Origin: a virus
Length of the DNA: 43,412 bases
Strand: one strand, 5' to 3'
Virus record (IMG/VR): IMGVR_UViG_3300033144_001559
Span: 1 to 43,412 of that record
The position numbers and the translations under genes were made by a program. How positions within the stretch are numbered: position 1 is the first letter of the stretch; the number at the start of each line of letters is the position of its first letter. The notes under the pieces were generated by a model, which was given only the letters and a program-made list of their open reading frames with translations, was not told where the DNA came from and did not search any database. Of this stretch, positions 353 through 42,554 are shown piece after piece.

Positions 353-570
353 TGGAAAAAGTTATTGGAGCAATCATAGGGTTTGCCCTATTAGTGGCAG
401 TCGTATCGGTCATTATGGCATTCCCCGTCATGTGGTGCTGGAACTGGGTAATGCCTGACATATTCGGTCTGGCTGAATCAAGTCCAGTTCATCGAGTAAT
501 AAGAGTGATTAAATTTGGAATTCTCGGATATTATACATATCTTTGCAGTCCGATTTTTAACTTAAATTAA
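352..570 (+). CDS. Small membrane protein with a WNWVMPDIFGL motif
   Basis: A 72-residue protein with an N-terminal helix (residues about 4-27), then the motif WNWVMPDIFGL, then a second less hydrophobic stretch. Short membrane proteins with a similar W-N-W-x-M-P-x-x-F-G-L motif occur in many unrelated phages and have no known function. It overlaps the preceding gene by one base. Its last 60 bases also carry a good promoter (514-545) for the recombination genes that follow. Confidence 0.65.
   Translation: MEKVIGAIIGFALLVAVVSVIMAFPVMWCWNWVMPDIFGLAESSPVHRVIRVIKFGILGYYTYLCSPIFNLN
514..545 (+). promoter_or_regulatory. Bacteroidota-type promoter inside the end of a membrane gene
   Basis: TTTG (514-517), exactly 20 bases, then TATCTTTG (538-545). 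This fits the known Bacteroidota pattern of TTTG near -33 and TAnnTTTG near -7. Transcription should start near 552, giving a leader of about 30 bases before the gene at 583. The site lies wholly within the coding sequence of the gene ending at 570. Confidence 0.75.
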
Positions 571-2101: not shown

Positions 2102-2412
2102 TGAAGCTAGGATTTTTCAGACACAATGCCGATAAGGTCAGGAAGCCACGAAAATTGACGCAAATGGACTTCTTTATTGTACTATATGTGAGCGAACAAG
2201 ATTACGCTACTAAGTACATGATTAGGAAGTACGTCACCAATTCAAATGGAACAGTGACAGAATCTCTTACATACCTCGTGAAGCAGGGCATGCTGAAGGT
2301 AGCTCGTGAAGCTAAGACGGCAAGAGGAATGTCAAGGCACTACGCCGTTGGGATAAAAGGACGACATATGGTAAGTGATTTTTATACACTCATGGAACGT
2401 CCTGTTAATTAA
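2098..2412 (+). CDS. Winged-helix DNA-binding protein, MarR-like
   Basis: I place the start at ATG 2098, where it overlaps the nuclease stop in an ATGA arrangement. A longer open frame reaching back to 2002 would lie inside the nuclease gene and is not credible. The 104-residue product has the order helix, helix-turn-helix (KYMIRKYVTNSNGTVTESLT), then YLVKQGMLKVAREAKTARG, which resembles a MarR-type recognition helix and wing. It may regulate early genes or act as a small accessory factor for replication. The target is unknown. Confidence 0.68.
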   Translation: MMKLGFFRHNADKVRKPRKLTQMDFFIVLYVSEQDYATKYMIRKYVTNSNGTVTESLTYLVKQGMLKVAREAKTARGMSRHYAVGIKGRHMVSDFYTLMERPVN

Positions 2413-2441
2413 TTATTTACACTTATAAAAAAGTCACACTT

Positions 2442-2861
2442 ATGGCAACAGGAAGTATCGCCCTTACGGGTACAGTAGTAGAAGTTCAAGATGAAGTGAA
2501 AGTTTCTGAGAGCTTCAAGAAGCGGATAATCAAGGTTGATATTGACGAAGACACTGAATACTCGCAAAGGGTTGTAATTGAGTTCGTTAATGACAAGACC
2601 TCTCTCTTGAGTAAGTATAGCGCTGGTGATAAAGTCACCGTCGATATCAATATCAGGGGTAAGGACTTCACTAAGGACGGTAAGACCAGCAACTTTACGA
2701 AGTTGAATGGTTGGAGAATCAAGGGATTCGCAGCTGGTGGTCAAGACGGTGGTCAAGATAGTGGTCAGGGTACCACTGATGACATGCCCGGAGGTAATAT
2801 ACCAGCAACCCCAGCACCCGATGCTGGTGGAGATAAAGGGCCGGATGACCTGCCGTTCTAG
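2442..2861 (+). CDS. ssb: Single-stranded DNA-binding protein, DUF3127-like
   Basis: A 139-residue protein with an OB-type core: LTGTVVEVQDE, then the KRIIKVDI strand, YSQRVVIEFVNDK, AGDKVTVDINIRGKD, and LNGWRIKGF. This order matches the DUF3127 family of Bacteroidota SSB-like proteins. The core is followed by a flexible Gly/Gln/Asp/Pro-rich linker and an acidic tip, DDLPF, the hallmark C-terminus by which SSBs recruit partner proteins. The position between the recombination and replication genes fits this role. Confidence 0.8.
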   Translation: MATGSIALTGTVVEVQDEVKVSESFKKRIIKVDIDEDTEYSQRVVIEFVNDKTSLLSKYSAGDKVTVDINIRGKDFTKDGKTSNFTKLNGWRIKGFAAGGQDGGQDSGQGTTDDMPGGNIPATPAPDAGGDKGPDDLPF

Positions 2862-2872
2862 TAACTAATGAC

Positions 2873-2981
2873 AGTGTGGCGCGGAAAACCTCCCTGTATA
2901 GCAGCAGGACGTGCGATATAAGCCTCTACACATAGTAGTAGCTGTCGGGGATACCAAGGCGGCAGTCGACCGCGCTTCACT
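2873..2981 (+). ncRNA. Candidate structured RNA, GC-rich, closed by a 12-bp stem
   Basis: The 146 bases between the SSB gene and the replisome organiser are much richer in G and C than their flanks. Bases 2873-2884 (AGTGTGGCGCGG) pair with 2970-2981 (CCGCGCTTCACT) with only one T-T mismatch and one G-T pair. Inside this closing stem are hairpins CCTG/CAGG (2893-2896 with 2905-2908), CTAC/GTAG (2926-2929 with 2935-2938, extended by AGC/GCT at 2921-2923 with 2941-2943), and an alternative CTGTC/GGCAG (2942-2946 with 2961-2965). I cannot match it to a known RNA class. It could be a small RNA, a leader element for the gene at 3008, or an origin-type DNA structure. Confidence 0.5.
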
Positions 2982-3007
2982 TTTAGTAATTAAATAACGT
3001 AATCGCA

Positions 3008-3766
3008 ATGGAAGCAAAATGGTTCAAACACAAGGTAGGCATGGCAACAGACGATAAATTCCGGAAGATACACATGAAGCATAGTGGTGACTTCTTTCCT
3101 TTCTATTGGATGTGGAACGTCATGCTGGAATCAGCTGCTAAGGATGGCGGTTGGTTCAGACAGGGTACAAATAAACCTCACGACGAAGACTCGTTATTCA
3201 TAGCATTCGAACTTGCATGCAGAAGCTTCGGGTACGAGATTGTGGATCGGTTCTTCTTCGCATTCGTTAGGGAGGGATTGATCATTGAGGATAAAGGATT
3301 CTACCACATTAAGAACTGGGAGAAGTATCAGCATGCATCACTCTCTACAGCAAGGGTACATGAACACAGGGAAAATAAGCAATTGGAAAAGGATGTAGAT
3401 TCAGTCATTCTTGCTCTAAATGAGATCACTGGTAAGAAGTTCCGAGTAAAGACAGATACGTACAGGCGTCTGATTAGAGGCCGATTCGCAGACGGTTACT
3501 CAAAGGAGAATATGCTCGCTGTGATCAGACAAAAGTTCAACACTTGGCACAACGATCCGAAGATGAAGAAGTTCATCACACCGGAAACGTTATTCAGACC
3601 CGGAAATTTTGACAGATACCTGAATGAGATACCAGAAGAACACGCGGAAGCGATGGGCACTGGCAAGCTGCTTGAGGTTGAGAATATATACGGGCACAAG
3701 AGTCATATAACTCAGGCTCAGTTTGATGCGGCAGAAAGTGATTTTTATCACATTGTAAAAAAGTAA
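3008..3766 (+). CDS. Replisome organiser / helicase loader (DUF4373 plus phage C-terminal domain)
   Basis: A 252-residue protein in two parts. Residues 1-110 resemble the Lin1244/Lin1753-like N-terminal domain (DUF4373) of phage replication proteins, a winged-helix module starting WFKHKVGMATDDKF. Residues about 130-205 match the conserved phage C-terminal domain TIGR02220 (ALNEITGKKF, YRRLIRGRFADGYSKENM, FITPETLFRPGNFDRYLNE). Proteins of this type bind the phage origin and load the replicative helicase. The helicase-primase gene follows 6 bases downstream, which supports the call. The structured element just upstream could be part of the origin. Confidence 0.8.
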   Translation: MEAKWFKHKVGMATDDKFRKIHMKHSGDFFPFYWMWNVMLESAAKDGGWFRQGTNKPHDEDSLFIAFELACRSFGYEIVDRFFFAFVREGLIIEDKGFYHIKNWEKYQHASLSTARVHEHRENKQLEKDVDSVILALNEITGKKFRVKTDTYRRLIRGRFADGYSKENMLAVIRQKFNTWHNDPKMKKFITPETLFRPGNFDRYLNEIPEEHAEAMGTGKLLEVENIYGHKSHITQAQFDAAESDFYHIVKK

Positions 3767-3772
3767 AATTGT

Positions 3773-5614
3773 ATGCACCAAAGTAAGGATGGTACGTTCG
3801 TCGCAGCGACGTTCGACGAGATGGGAATTCAAGTTCCCTATGGTAAGTCGGGGCAATTCAAGATCAAATGCCCCATGTGTAAGGATAACAGATCGAAGGC
3901 TGGCAATCAGTCTGACACTCCGTTATCTGTTGACACAAATGAGCAGATAGCGAACTGCCACAACTGCGGAGCTAAATTCGTTGTTGATAAAGGCGGCTAT
4001 CTGGAAGCCTCTAATCAGAAGCAATACAAGAAGCCTAAGCCACAAGAAACCTACGATAAGGTATCTGAGAAGGCTACAGCTTGGTTTGCTTCCCGATCTA
4101 TTACCCCCGAAACATTACGAAAGGCGAAAGTGACTGACGGGATGGTGTTTATGCCTCAAGTAAATAAGGAGGTTAATGCCATTCAATTCAATTACTTTGA
4201 CCGATTACAGCTGGAGAACGTGAAGTACCGTGATGGTGCTAAGAATTTCCGGATGTTTGGAGGGGCTAAACTGATCTTCTATAACCTCAATGCGCTGTAC
4301 GAGACTGAAGGTGATATTATCATCACTGAGGGAGAGATAGACGCGCTCAGTTACATCGAGTGTGACCGTAGTAACGTGATCTCTGTACCGAACGGAGCAT
4401 CCAAAGGATCGATGAAGCTCGAATACCTTGACAATCACTACCACCTGTTCGATAGCAAGTGGAGAGCGGAGCATAAGCTCAAGCCTTTGAACCGGATCAT
4501 CCTTGCTATGGATGATGACGAGCCGGGAAGGATGCTTAGAACCGAATTTGTGAGGCGCTTAGGTGCTCACCGATGCTGGTTTATGGACTTCAACGGCTGT
4601 AACGACCCGAATGAGCTGCTTATGAAGGATGGAGTTGTTGCGTTATCTGCAACAGCTGACAAAGCTAAGCCTGCTCCACTCACTGACGTAGTGACAGTGG
4701 ACGATATGCGGGATCAGCTCGCTAAGCTTCAGAAGGATGGACTTCAGCCCGGAGATCAGATTGGAACTTCGGAGTTTCAGCGGTTCTATAGCTTCGAGAA
4801 GCCAAGGATGACCATCATCACTGGTGTATCGACGCATGGAAAGTCTGAATTTCTGGACGATATCATTGCAAGGCTGGCTGTCAATAAGGATTGGAGCTTC
4901 GCCGTCTTTTCCCCGGAGAACTTCCCGATTGAGTATCACATCAGTAAACTGGCGAGTAAGATCATCGGTAAGGAGTTTAATGCATGCACTGCGGGTGAAT
5001 TAGAACAAGTGTATGATTTCATTGGCAAGCATTTCTACTGGATATATCCGGAAGACAACAACTACAAGCTGGATAATATCCTGCGTATCACCGACATGCT
5101 GGTGTCTCGCTACGGGATCAACGGCTTAATCATCGACCCTTGGACTGAGATTGATAAGGGCGGTCAGCATACCACTGATAACATCAATGAGTTCCTGACT
5201 GATCTGAACCAATTCAAAAGGGATCGTAACTGCCACATCTTCCTTGTGGCTCACCCTACTAAGATGCCGAAGAATGAGGACGGTACCGTAATGGTACCAG
5301 ACCTGATGAACATCTCAGGTAGCGCCAACTTCTTCAATAAGACTGATGGTGGGATTACCGTGTATAGAAACATGAGTAACAACAGCGTGAGAATTTACAT
5401 CAACAAGGTCAAGTTCAAACACTTAGGTAAGCTTGGCTATGTGGAGATGGATTACAACGTCCTGAGTGGTAGGTACGAGGATGCCAACGACGATTGGGAT
5501 GACAGTAATTGGTTGACAGCTGAGCAGCAGGATATGTTTGATCAGGCCGTCGACAACAAGGATATTGGAGTGAATAACGAGTTCGATTCTAAAGGACTTG
5601 ATGTACCATTTTAA
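3773..5614 (+). CDS. Bifunctional primase-helicase, T7 gp4-like
   Basis: A 613-residue protein with all parts of a T7 gp4-type enzyme. Zinc ribbon: C33, C36, C62, C65 (CPMC and CHNC). TOPRIM primase core around residue 185 (IITEGEIDALS), with a second acidic motif MDDDEPG. RecA/DnaB-like helicase domain: Walker A near residue 350 (GVSTHGKSEF), Walker B near 450 (GLIIDPW), and the downstream motif FLVAHPTK. It unwinds the fork and lays primers for the lagging strand. The C-terminus ends GLDVPF, similar to the SSB tip, which suggests a shared docking partner. Confidence 0.9.
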   Translation: MHQSKDGTFVAATFDEMGIQVPYGKSGQFKIKCPMCKDNRSKAGNQSDTPLSVDTNEQIANCHNCGAKFVVDKGGYLEASNQKQYKKPKPQETYDKVSEKATAWFASRSITPETLRKAKVTDGMVFMPQVNKEVNAIQFNYFDRLQLENVKYRDGAKNFRMFGGAKLIFYNLNALYETEGDIIITEGEIDALSYIECDRSNVISVPNGASKGSMKLEYLDNHYHLFDSKWRAEHKLKPLNRIILAMDDDEPGRMLRTEFVRRLGAHRCWFMDFNGCNDPNELLMKDGVVALSATADKAKPAPLTDVVTVDDMRDQLAKLQKDGLQPGDQIGTSEFQRFYSFEKPRMTIITGVSTHGKSEFLDDIIARLAVNKDWSFAVFSPENFPIEYHISKLASKIIGKEFNACTAGELEQVYDFIGKHFYWIYPEDNNYKLDNILRITDMLVSRYGINGLIIDPWTEIDKGGQHTTDNINEFLTDLNQFKRDRNCHIFLVAHPTKMPKNEDGTVMVPDLMNISGSANFFNKTDGGITVYRNMSNNSVRIYINKVKFKHLGKLGYVEMDYNVLSGRYEDANDDWDDSNWLTAEQQDMFDQAVDNKDIGVNNEFDSKGLDVPF

Positions 5615-13453: not shown

Positions 13454-13642
13454 ATGATGAAACGTTTGGTATTGTCAGGAATTTTACTTATATTTGCATC
13501 GTGTTCAGGTTCAAGATACATACCTCAGAATGACCTGACACCAGAACAACGGGCTGAGGTAAAGGCGAATGGGGGCTTCAATCCCTATTACGTACCCCCT
13601 AAGAACATGAAAGTATGGATGCCAAGGCGTCCTAAAAGATAA
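13454..13642 (+). CDS. Small lipoprotein
   Basis: A 62-residue protein with a basic start (MMKRL), a hydrophobic stretch (VLSGILLIFA) and a Cys at residue 17 in FASCSGS, a near-lipobox for signal peptidase II. The mature part is short, polar and ends basic (MPRRPKR). It may sit on the outer face of the inner membrane or reach the outer membrane, as an o-spanin or superinfection-blocking lipoprotein would. A strong promoter-like sequence lies inside the signal peptide codons (13465-13496). The first ATG is at 13454 and a second at 13457. Confidence 0.65.
   Translation: MMKRLVLSGILLIFASCSGSRYIPQNDLTPEQRAEVKANGGFNPYYVPPKNMKVWMPRRPKR
13465..13496 (+). promoter_or_regulatory. Promoter-like site inside the lipoprotein signal peptide
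   Basis: TTTG (13465-13468), 20 bases, TATATTTG (13489-13496). Over 36 bases it differs at only about three positions from the promoter at 25559-25590 on the other strand. A start near 13503 could transcribe only the holin-like gene at 13673, because the lipoprotein start codon would be upstream of it. Confidence 0.55.
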
Positions 13643-40767: not shown

Positions 40768-40953
40768 TTATTGTCTTTTAAATCCAAGTGTTTCTTTTTC
40801 CGCTTCAATGTCGGCTTCGAAGGCCATCCCTCTATCCAACACCGGAATCCCAAAAACGTGGATTGTTACTCCTGAATCTTGTTTCTTTATGAGGCCCGAC
40901 TCCTTGTCGAAATAAGTCCTCTTGTCTTTATATCTTCTTTTCCAAATCGCCAT
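40768..40953 (-). CDS. Small basic protein after GroEL
   Basis: A 61-residue protein starting MAIWKRRYKDKRTYFDKESG, with a basic first half and a charged end (EAEKETLGFKRQ). It overlaps the GroEL stop by one base and is one base from the next gene. No family is recognised. Very close spacing supports a single operon. Confidence 0.55.
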   Translation of the reverse strand: MAIWKRRYKDKRTYFDKESGLIKKQDSGVTIHVFGIPVLDRGMAFEADIEAEKETLGFKRQ

Positions 40954-42554
40954 TATGCTCTCTTATCAACTATAACACAATTGGTTGTGATGATCATCCC
41001 CGCCACCGAAACCGAGTTCTTCACTGCTGACTTGATCACCTTTGCGGGATCGATTATGCCAGCCTTATACAGGCTTTCAAAGCTGTCAGTCAAGGCGTTG
41101 TAGCCATAGCTGATATCTTTGGTTACAAACGTGCTCCGCTTTACTGCCTTAATAACGCTCTCTCCATCAATTCCGCAGTTCTGAGCCATCACCCTGAGAG
41201 GCTCCTCCATTGAATCCATAACAATGTTATATCCATCCCTATGATCCTCGCTTACATGCTTCTCACGCCCTCGCATGCACCTTATGTATGCAATCCCTCC
41301 ACCCGGAACGTATCCGTCCTCTAACGACGACTTAGTGGCATGTACGGCATCCTCAATCCGGAAGTAGTTCTCCTTCATTTCGGCTTCTGAGTTTCCGCCT
41401 GCATAAATCACACCTATTCCAGCCGTGAGATTTGCAATACGCTTAGATAGCTTCCAAGCCTTTGTTCCGTCATGATCCTGCTTCTGTTCGTCCTTAATCA
41501 CCGCAACCTGATCAAAGATATCCTCCGGTGCTCCATGCCTACCGATTATAGTAGTGCTTTGCTCGTCGACCACAATACGATCAGCTGAGCCAAGATGCGC
41601 CATTGTAACATCGGTTAATCCGACTTCCCCTACCTCTGAAATTACCGTTGCGCCAGTAAGAATTGCCAAATCCTTCAGTGCATCGGTACGATCTGACCCA
41701 AAATCAGGTGCAGTTACCGCTACAACGGGAAGACCCTCTTTCGTCTTGTTCTGAAGCAGTGTACCAAGTGACTCACCCTCAATGCCGCCACAGATAATCA
41801 GGAGAGGGACTTGCTTCCCTTTATTCCTCATTTCTTCTACTACGCAGTTCAATGCGGGTACCATATCAGTGAAAGGCCCATCGAATACCTTATCGGTAAT
41901 CATAATCTTGACGTCTGAATATTCGGCGGTTTTTCGACCTTCGTTGGTAATGAACCCCGGATGAATCATCCCGGAATTGATCTGACAACCATCCACAACA
42001 CTAACGGAGTTAGACCCAGCCTGTGTTTCCTCAATCCTGATTGCTCCATTCTCACCGACAGAATCAAACAGGTCAGCAATCATTTTACCGATTTTTGGAT
42101 CATTGTTTGAGGCGACGGTGGCAATCTGTTTGGTAGTCTCCTTGTCGGTAACCAGTTTCTTAAGAAACTCAACCTCTTCAGCTAAGTCCTCGGCAGCTAA
42201 ATCCATACCACGCTTTAAGTCCATTGGGTTCGCCCCGGCTTGAACGTACTTCATTGCCGTATTGATCATGAATCGAGCTAGAACTGTAGAAGTGGTTGTT
42301 CCGTCTCCTGCTTCTCTGGCTGTCCTTTTTGCTGCATCACGAACGATATTGATTCCCGCCTGAGCGATTGAATCTACTGAATGTACCTGTGCGGCTACGG
42401 TTACCCCGTCCTTTGTTACTACGTGTTCGCGACCCACATTGAAGATCACGTTACGTCCTTTTGCTCCCAGAGTAGAACCTACGGCGTCTGCGAGAATATT
42501 CACACCAGACATTAATCGATCCCTTGACTCTTCGTTAAATTTGATTTCCTTCAT
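40953..42554 (-). CDS. groEL: Phage chaperonin GroEL
   Basis: A 533-residue group I chaperonin subunit. Equatorial-domain ATP motifs are intact: ADAVGSTLGAKGRNVIF, VTKDGVTVA and GDGTTTSTVLA, with the distal NYFRIEDAVHATKSSLEDG and VPGGGIAY. The catalytic Asp (IEDAVHA) is in place, so it should hydrolyse ATP. The C-terminus ends VIVDKRA, without the Gly-Gly-Met tail common in host GroEL. It overlaps the upstream RepL-like gene by 20 bases. It is probably a late-function chaperone for capsid or tail folding. Confidence 0.93.
   Translation of the reverse strand: MKEIKFNEESRDRLMSGVNILADAVGSTLGAKGRNVIFNVGREHVVTKDGVTVAAQVHSVDSIAQAGINIVRDAAKRTAREAGDGTTTSTVLARFMINTAMKYVQAGANPMDLKRGMDLAAEDLAEEVEFLKKLVTDKETTKQIATVASNNDPKIGKMIADLFDSVGENGAIRIEETQAGSNSVSVVDGCQINSGMIHPGFITNEGRKTAEYSDVKIMITDKVFDGPFTDMVPALNCVVEEMRNKGKQVPLLIICGGIEGESLGTLLQNKTKEGLPVVAVTAPDFGSDRTDALKDLAILTGATVISEVGEVGLTDVTMAHLGSADRIVVDEQSTTIIGRHGAPEDIFDQVAVIKDEQKQDHDGTKAWKLSKRIANLTAGIGVIYAGGNSEAEMKENYFRIEDAVHATKSSLEDGYVPGGGIAYIRCMRGREKHVSEDHRDGYNIVMDSMEEPLRVMAQNCGIDGESVIKAVKRSTFVTKDISYGYNALTDSFESLYKAGIIDPAKVIKSAVKNSVSVAGMIITTNCVIVDKRA

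Follow-up and report, generated by a model that had tools for sequence, protein, structure and literature searches.

The junction between the single-strand DNA binding protein (SSB) and replisome-organiser (RO) genes of the phage studied here carries a real element that is clade-limited, RNA-like and of a known general kind. The source is virus DNA (IMGVR_UViG_3300033144_001559) of 43,412 nucleotides, and this whole stretch is referred to below as the window. Our preferred, though tentative, reading is that the element is an operon-internal structure of the early mRNA, which may act as a partial attenuator and/or message protector keeping SSB high and the initiator low.

The gap, its genes and its fold

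The 146-base gap reported by the first-pass annotation is real, extending from 2862 to 3007 between the SSB stop at 2861 and the RO start at 3008. The features in and around it are as follows.

514 to 545, plus strand: Bacteroidetes-type promoter TTTGG-N-TATCTTTG (pattern scan), at the head of the element's operon; the same promoter stands before the same gene at L003:526
2442 to 2861, plus strand: ssb gene of the DUF3127 (PF11325) type (Pfam E 2.4e-16; PHROG 4932, single strand DNA binding protein)
2868 to 2876, plus strand: 5' flank ATGACAGTG, the 3' portion of which lies within the closing stem; invariant in the window, L001, L003 and L032
2873 to 2884, plus strand: 5' arm of closing stem P1, pairing with 2970-2981 at 11 of 12 positions; stem retained in relatives
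2885 to 2969, plus strand: variable interior of 85 nt, with predicted hairpins at 2893-2908, 2926-2938 and 2941-2963 that are not conserved (predicted fold; alignment)
2970 to 2981, plus strand: 3' arm of closing stem P1, pairing with 2873-2884; covariance-model match
2976 to 2987, plus strand: U-rich tail starting inside the outer stem, TTCACTTTTAGT, with 7 T of 12 (5-9 T of 12 in relatives)
2982 to 3007, plus strand: A+T-rich leader immediately 5' of the RO start codon, GC 23%; the spacer between stem and ATG is 23-34 nt in five phages
3008 to 3766, plus strand: RO/replication-initiation gene, Phg_2220_C (Pfam E 2.9e-22; PHROG 428, replication initiation protein)
3773 to 5614, plus strand: primase/helicase gene (PHROG 239, E 1.4e-88)

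The promoter type, the DUF3127 SSB and matches to Flavobacterium phages indicate that the host probably belongs to the Bacteroidetes, whose promoter consensus is TTTGG...TAnnTTTG. From translations, we take the gene at 40953-42554 to encode a GroEL-like chaperonin, and the phage presumably also has a dUTPase-like gene; a ribonucleotide reductase gene (searched against PHROG-type profiles) is present in the same phage. A copy of TGATGACAGTG, the sequence that relatives conserve on the 5' side of the element, lies at 7-17, the very start of the contig, and is absent from the corresponding region of L003.

The closing stem proposed from the first reading stands, AGUGUGGCGCGG (2873-2884) and CCGCGCUUCACU (2970-2981) pairing at 11 of 12 positions with 10 Watson-Crick pairs, one G.U and one U.U. 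Its description as GC-rich holds for the core at 2873-2981 (56%) but not for the gap overall (47.9%, against 44.2% for the window), since 2982-3007 has just 23%. By itself the fold in the window is marginal: when the gap is shuffled, 22 of 200 sequences fold equally well, as do 13 of 500 shuffles of a 124-nt cut and 5.5% of 866 stretches of 146 nt, and the plus strand of the 43 kb holds 25 comparable 12-bp stems with a span of 80-130 (overlapping hits counted). Support for the element comes from its relatives. The internal hairpins that had been described, at least three in number, are present in the predicted minimum-energy fold, but none is recognisable in any relative; two of them had been proposed as alternatives that could switch, but those at 2926-2938 and 2941-2963 coexist in that fold and, as the interior is not conserved, the switch is unsupported. 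The statement that the element matches no RNA class agrees with our search of the whole window against Rfam 15, models which include STAXI, as no match reached the gathering threshold; up to E 10, the region 2800-3050 gave two chance-level matches, both on the minus strand. ARAGORN identified no tRNA or tmRNA genes in the window.

Re-formation of the stem in related phages

Relatives were sought by scans with RO, SSB, primase and a ribonucleotide reductase segment (best 80 of 513). Besides the window, the matches listed include five distinct phages with similar RO and primase, namely L001 (the same record as L012, L031 and L034), L003 (the same as L033), L032 (the same as L035), L051 and L037. 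L002 reads identically to L003 at the element, and the contig of a further relative, L036/L050, stops short of the junction. The order SSB-stem-RO is found in the window, L003, L032 and L051; L001 has the order stem-HNH-RO, and its contig starts 12 bases before ATGACAGTG. The gaps of L001, L003 and L032 have ATGACAGTG near the start and a C/U-rich arm, then an A+T-rich leader, at the end. Between these flanks, alignment of the three with the window indicates that length and letters are almost wholly different. Conservation in related phages is borne out by the flanks and the re-formed stem in three further phage types. Endonuclease genes were observed nearby in two relatives: an HNH gene (L001:113-655), which follows the A+T-rich leader and precedes RO, with a 26-base overlap at the RO start, and a GIY-YIG/NUMOD-like gene (L003:3771-4346) inserted between RO and primase.

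In the 12-pair register, the window and L003 each have 10 Watson-Crick pairs, one G.U and one other mismatch, and L001 has nine Watson-Crick pairs, three G.U and no other mismatch. Read on the sense strand, the wobble cells of these three stems comprise five G.U and no A.C, which favours a stem acting as RNA. The proposed check for covariation yielded little data: in the closing stem a single pair differs on both sides, being C-G in the window but G-C in L001, and an inner stem has one such change (L001 versus L003), the remaining differences between paired stem cells being one-sided or involving a mismatch. L032 was excluded from the count because its arms do not fit the 12-pair register; its ACAGU(G) pairs with (C)ACUGU, and an insertion on the 5' side is followed by another stem, GCGGGAUGC/GCAUCCCCGC (read from sequence; fold). 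Shuffling of the 3' arm gave equal or better pairing 20, 1, 20 and 36 times per 2000 for the window, L001, L003 and L032, respectively. Cross-pairing of arms was mixed: for the 5' arms of the window, L003 and L032 the best partner is the 3' arm of the same phage, the L001 5' arm prefers the 3' arms of L003 and the window over its own, and judged by 3' arm the own partner is best for L001 only. Compensation is thus not proven by cross-pairing alone.

At the same junction, L051 (RO 38% and primase 54% identical) has a plain 11-bp hairpin, AGCCCUUCUCU/AGAGAGGGGCU, with UAUUUAACUUAU, and one of 200 shuffles folds equally well. L037 (primase 52% identical) has a 34-base gap with no fold and no element. 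A stem is present at the junction in five of the six phages (the window, L001, L003, L032 and L051; not L037), and in all five the distance from stem end to the next start codon is 23-34 nt, the next start in L001 being that of the inserted HNH gene.

A covariance model (R1) built from L001 and L003 alone found the window element with E 0.0011, the sole significant non-training match in 26 chosen sources (286,262 bases). In the same sources it matched L032 at the right place with a non-significant E of 1.7 and gave nothing further up to E 5; L032 was missed in a search of six records at E <= 1. No match to R1 was obtained in 296 genomes of the phylum, a sample without a positive control, and no DNA similarity was detected in 50,697 phage records. 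A stem-arm DNA pattern occurred in 13 stretches, with the element only in L012 (= L001), L002 and L003, and a pattern of the L001/L003 joining segments likewise occurred in 13 stretches, with the element again only in L001, L002 and L003. Against genome contigs, the RO alignment matched 0 of 144 and the primase segment matched one locus at 41%; in 295 genomes of the class, the RO alignment gave one match (E 1.9e-7, C-terminal part). The element is not named in those parts of the literature that our search reached, which falls short of proof that it is unpublished, and a term search of PMC7077304 gave no occurrence of noncoding, non-coding, pseudoknot, small RNA, terminator or promoter.

Transcription signals and proposed role

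A pattern scan of the window identified two Bacteroidetes-type promoters, at 514 and 9453, plus a similar sequence at 13465, which sits in the start of a small lipoprotein-like ORF (13454-13642); each of the three starts with TTTGG and finishes with TTTG. A 400-nt non-coding RNA after the site at 13465 was considered and rejected because small ORFs fill the region. The scan found no such promoter in or near the gap (2862), and sigma-70-type sites occurred at shuffled level with none in the gap on the plus strand, suggesting that the element is most likely read within the operon mRNA. Among the 12 bases of the U-rich tail, T accounts for 7 in the window, 9 in L001 and 5 in L003, while 26% of window 12-mers have five or more T and 0.2% have nine or more. 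There is no long U-run 3' of the stem in the window or L003, unlike the clear terminator of this phage near 13881-13910, after which TTTTTTT stands, so termination at the element would be partial at best. A terminator scan of the window, L032 and L051 listed the junction element only for L051, where the hairpin ranks first of eight terminator-like sites (both strands, 3 kb; 1.4 expected); the window and L032 elements were missed partly because the scan allows loops of 3-8 only.

In Flavobacterium phages of the Lillamyvirus/Muminvirus type, the region behind ssb contains a hairpin resembling a terminator, with T8, as well as a promoter and an H-type pseudoknot RNA whose end is a U-run.

L029:3440 to 3552: pseudoknot RNA of Flavobacterium phage filifjonk9-1 (NC_048831.1), preceded by a Bacteroidetes-type promoter of its own at approximately L029:3406-3435; also in L042-L045

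In an alignment of five phages (four distinct sequences) chosen from 46 records having the sequence, all 72 cells pair, two-sided changes occur in five of 18 pairs and none of 500 shuffles scores as high in covariation; this pseudoknot RNA has stronger support than the window element. No Rfam family matches it credibly, and its model (R2) gave no match in 295 genomes of one Bacteroidetes class, again a sample without a positive control. Several records annotate a short hypothetical protein across the region. The gaps of FPSV-S2 and FL-1 contain promoter-like TTTG...TTTGC (by eye) which, together with the T8 hairpin and promoter of the Flavobacterium phages, suggests that the junction is often a transcription-unit boundary.

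A stem with a U-rich stretch, located where other Bacteroidetes phages carry a terminator or promoter, suggests partial termination or 3'-end protection. We propose that the promoter at 514-545 would drive an early operon mRNA spanning the element and surrounding genes, and that the GC-rich closing stem and U-rich stretch after ssb may end a fraction of transcripts. The same stem could alternatively or additionally protect the 3' end of the upstream ssb message. The expected outcome would be plentiful SSB, for which the need is stoichiometric, and scarce initiator and primase/helicase, for which it is catalytic, with selection presumably holding the stem while the interior varies freely. Such an arrangement would show how a Bacteroidetes phage sets different outputs for genes crowded into a single operon (bulk SSB, trace initiator). 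Further points speak against this reading: an interior of 48-85 nt is unusual as a terminator loop, L001/L003 would have no need of their conserved joining segments or of a pseudoknot, which is possible there, and L037 manages without the element.

Alternative readings and known systems

The main rival is an RO leader, in which a folded domain, possibly pseudoknotted in L001/L003, would be bound by SSB, RO or a ligand and control RO translation or read-through; we regard this as possible but rather unlikely. A regulatory leader was among the roles first suggested for the gap, and it fits an RNA-like stem in four phage types and a plain hairpin in a fifth, always 23-34 nt 5' of the downstream start codon (5/5). 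Also in its favour, the interiors of L001 and L003 (the inner arms enclosing 48 and 51 nt, respectively) align with few gaps and have a common inner stem of six positions, CGCUAC/GUAGCG versus CCCGAC/GGAGGG (tandem G.A), in which one pair is changed on both sides, as well as 9-nt loops and common unpaired stretches, UAAACAGA and AACACGG. L001 additionally has a possible 6-bp pseudoknot, AGUCAU/AUGACU, but this is unsupported in L003, where the aligned register pairs in 7 of 12 cells only and a shifted register gives four pairs plus a mismatch at most (by eye). In the two-row L001/L003 alignment 264 of 500 shuffles reach the covariation score, shuffles being uninformative at two rows. Counting further against a leader, this inner architecture was not seen in the window or L032 interiors, and in L051, which is more distantly related, the hairpin is a plain one. 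The window and L032 interiors both contain AAGGCGGC-AGTCGA, though not in corresponding positions (4 of 2000 shuffles equally good); a shifted homology was considered and dropped. A leader peptide from ATGACAGTG was also rejected, as the frames of approximately 11, 32, 9 and 6 codons (window, L001, L003 and L032; by reading) are not conserved. Directly 5' of the start codon, the leaders of L001 (99-111), L003 (3005-3017) and L032 (1276-1288) contain a near-palindrome, TTACAAAWTGTAA, that is a possible regulator site and is not found in the window.

It is improbable that the element represents a new leader-RNA class, its closing stem enclosing an interchangeable domain, folded or pseudoknotted, through which SSB or the initiator would set RO supply; if true, this would let the phage gauge single-stranded DNA coverage before starting more forks. 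Also improbable is a mere spacer whose chance stem was retained through close relationship. The window fold energy barely beyond shuffles, the few relatives and arm cross-pairing that does not consistently favour own arms are consistent with a spacer, but the arms are complementary in four types despite almost complete turnover of the interior. A stable small RNA processed from the operon mRNA and acting in trans, another role first suggested, could account for the compact, GC-rich closing stem and has a parallel in the promoter-driven structured RNA at the same junction of Flavobacterium phages. We consider it quite improbable, as the window has no promoter inside or just 5' of the element, no Bacteroidetes-type promoter near it and no strong terminator, the interior, expected seat of the target-binding part, is not conserved, and R2 has no match in the window, L001, L003, L032 or L051 up to E 5. 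Finally, a structured single-stranded DNA site (the origin hairpin first suggested, or a primosome-assembly hairpin) recognised by adjacent replication proteins is very improbable since, despite a location between ssb and the initiator gene adjoining an A+T-rich stretch, sense-strand wobbles are G.U with none A.C, the single-stranded DNA fold is weak (20 of 200 shuffles equally good) and there are no iterons nearby, the sole direct repeat in 2400-3800 being one within the ssb coding tail.

Intrinsic terminators, intercistronic attenuators and 3'-protecting stem-loops occur in bacterial and phage operons, and the window element resembles them in its GC-rich stem, U-rich stretch and position between high- and low-demand genes, differing in its long folded interior and in the weak U-tract of the window and L003. 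The T4 gene 32 mRNA pseudoknot likewise links a structure in phage mRNA with an SSB gene, but it occupies the 5' end of the message for ssb, where SSB binds it, whereas the window element is a predicted structure 3' of ssb for which SSB binding is putative. The STAXI motif comprises two or three tandem pseudoknots, often with UUCG loops (Weinberg et al., 2010; PMC2864571). It is similar in being a structured RNA, possibly with a pseudoknot, close to ssb and to genes for DNA handling. The window element differs in being a single unit, with no repeat in the gap and no Rfam match. The Lillamyvirus/Muminvirus pseudoknot RNA is also a structured RNA behind a DUF3127 ssb gene, but has its own promoter, a U-run and a different topology, and neither R1 nor R2 finds the other's family. 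This comparison suggests a tendency, in several phage groups, for regulatory structure to occur at the junction behind the DUF3127 ssb gene.
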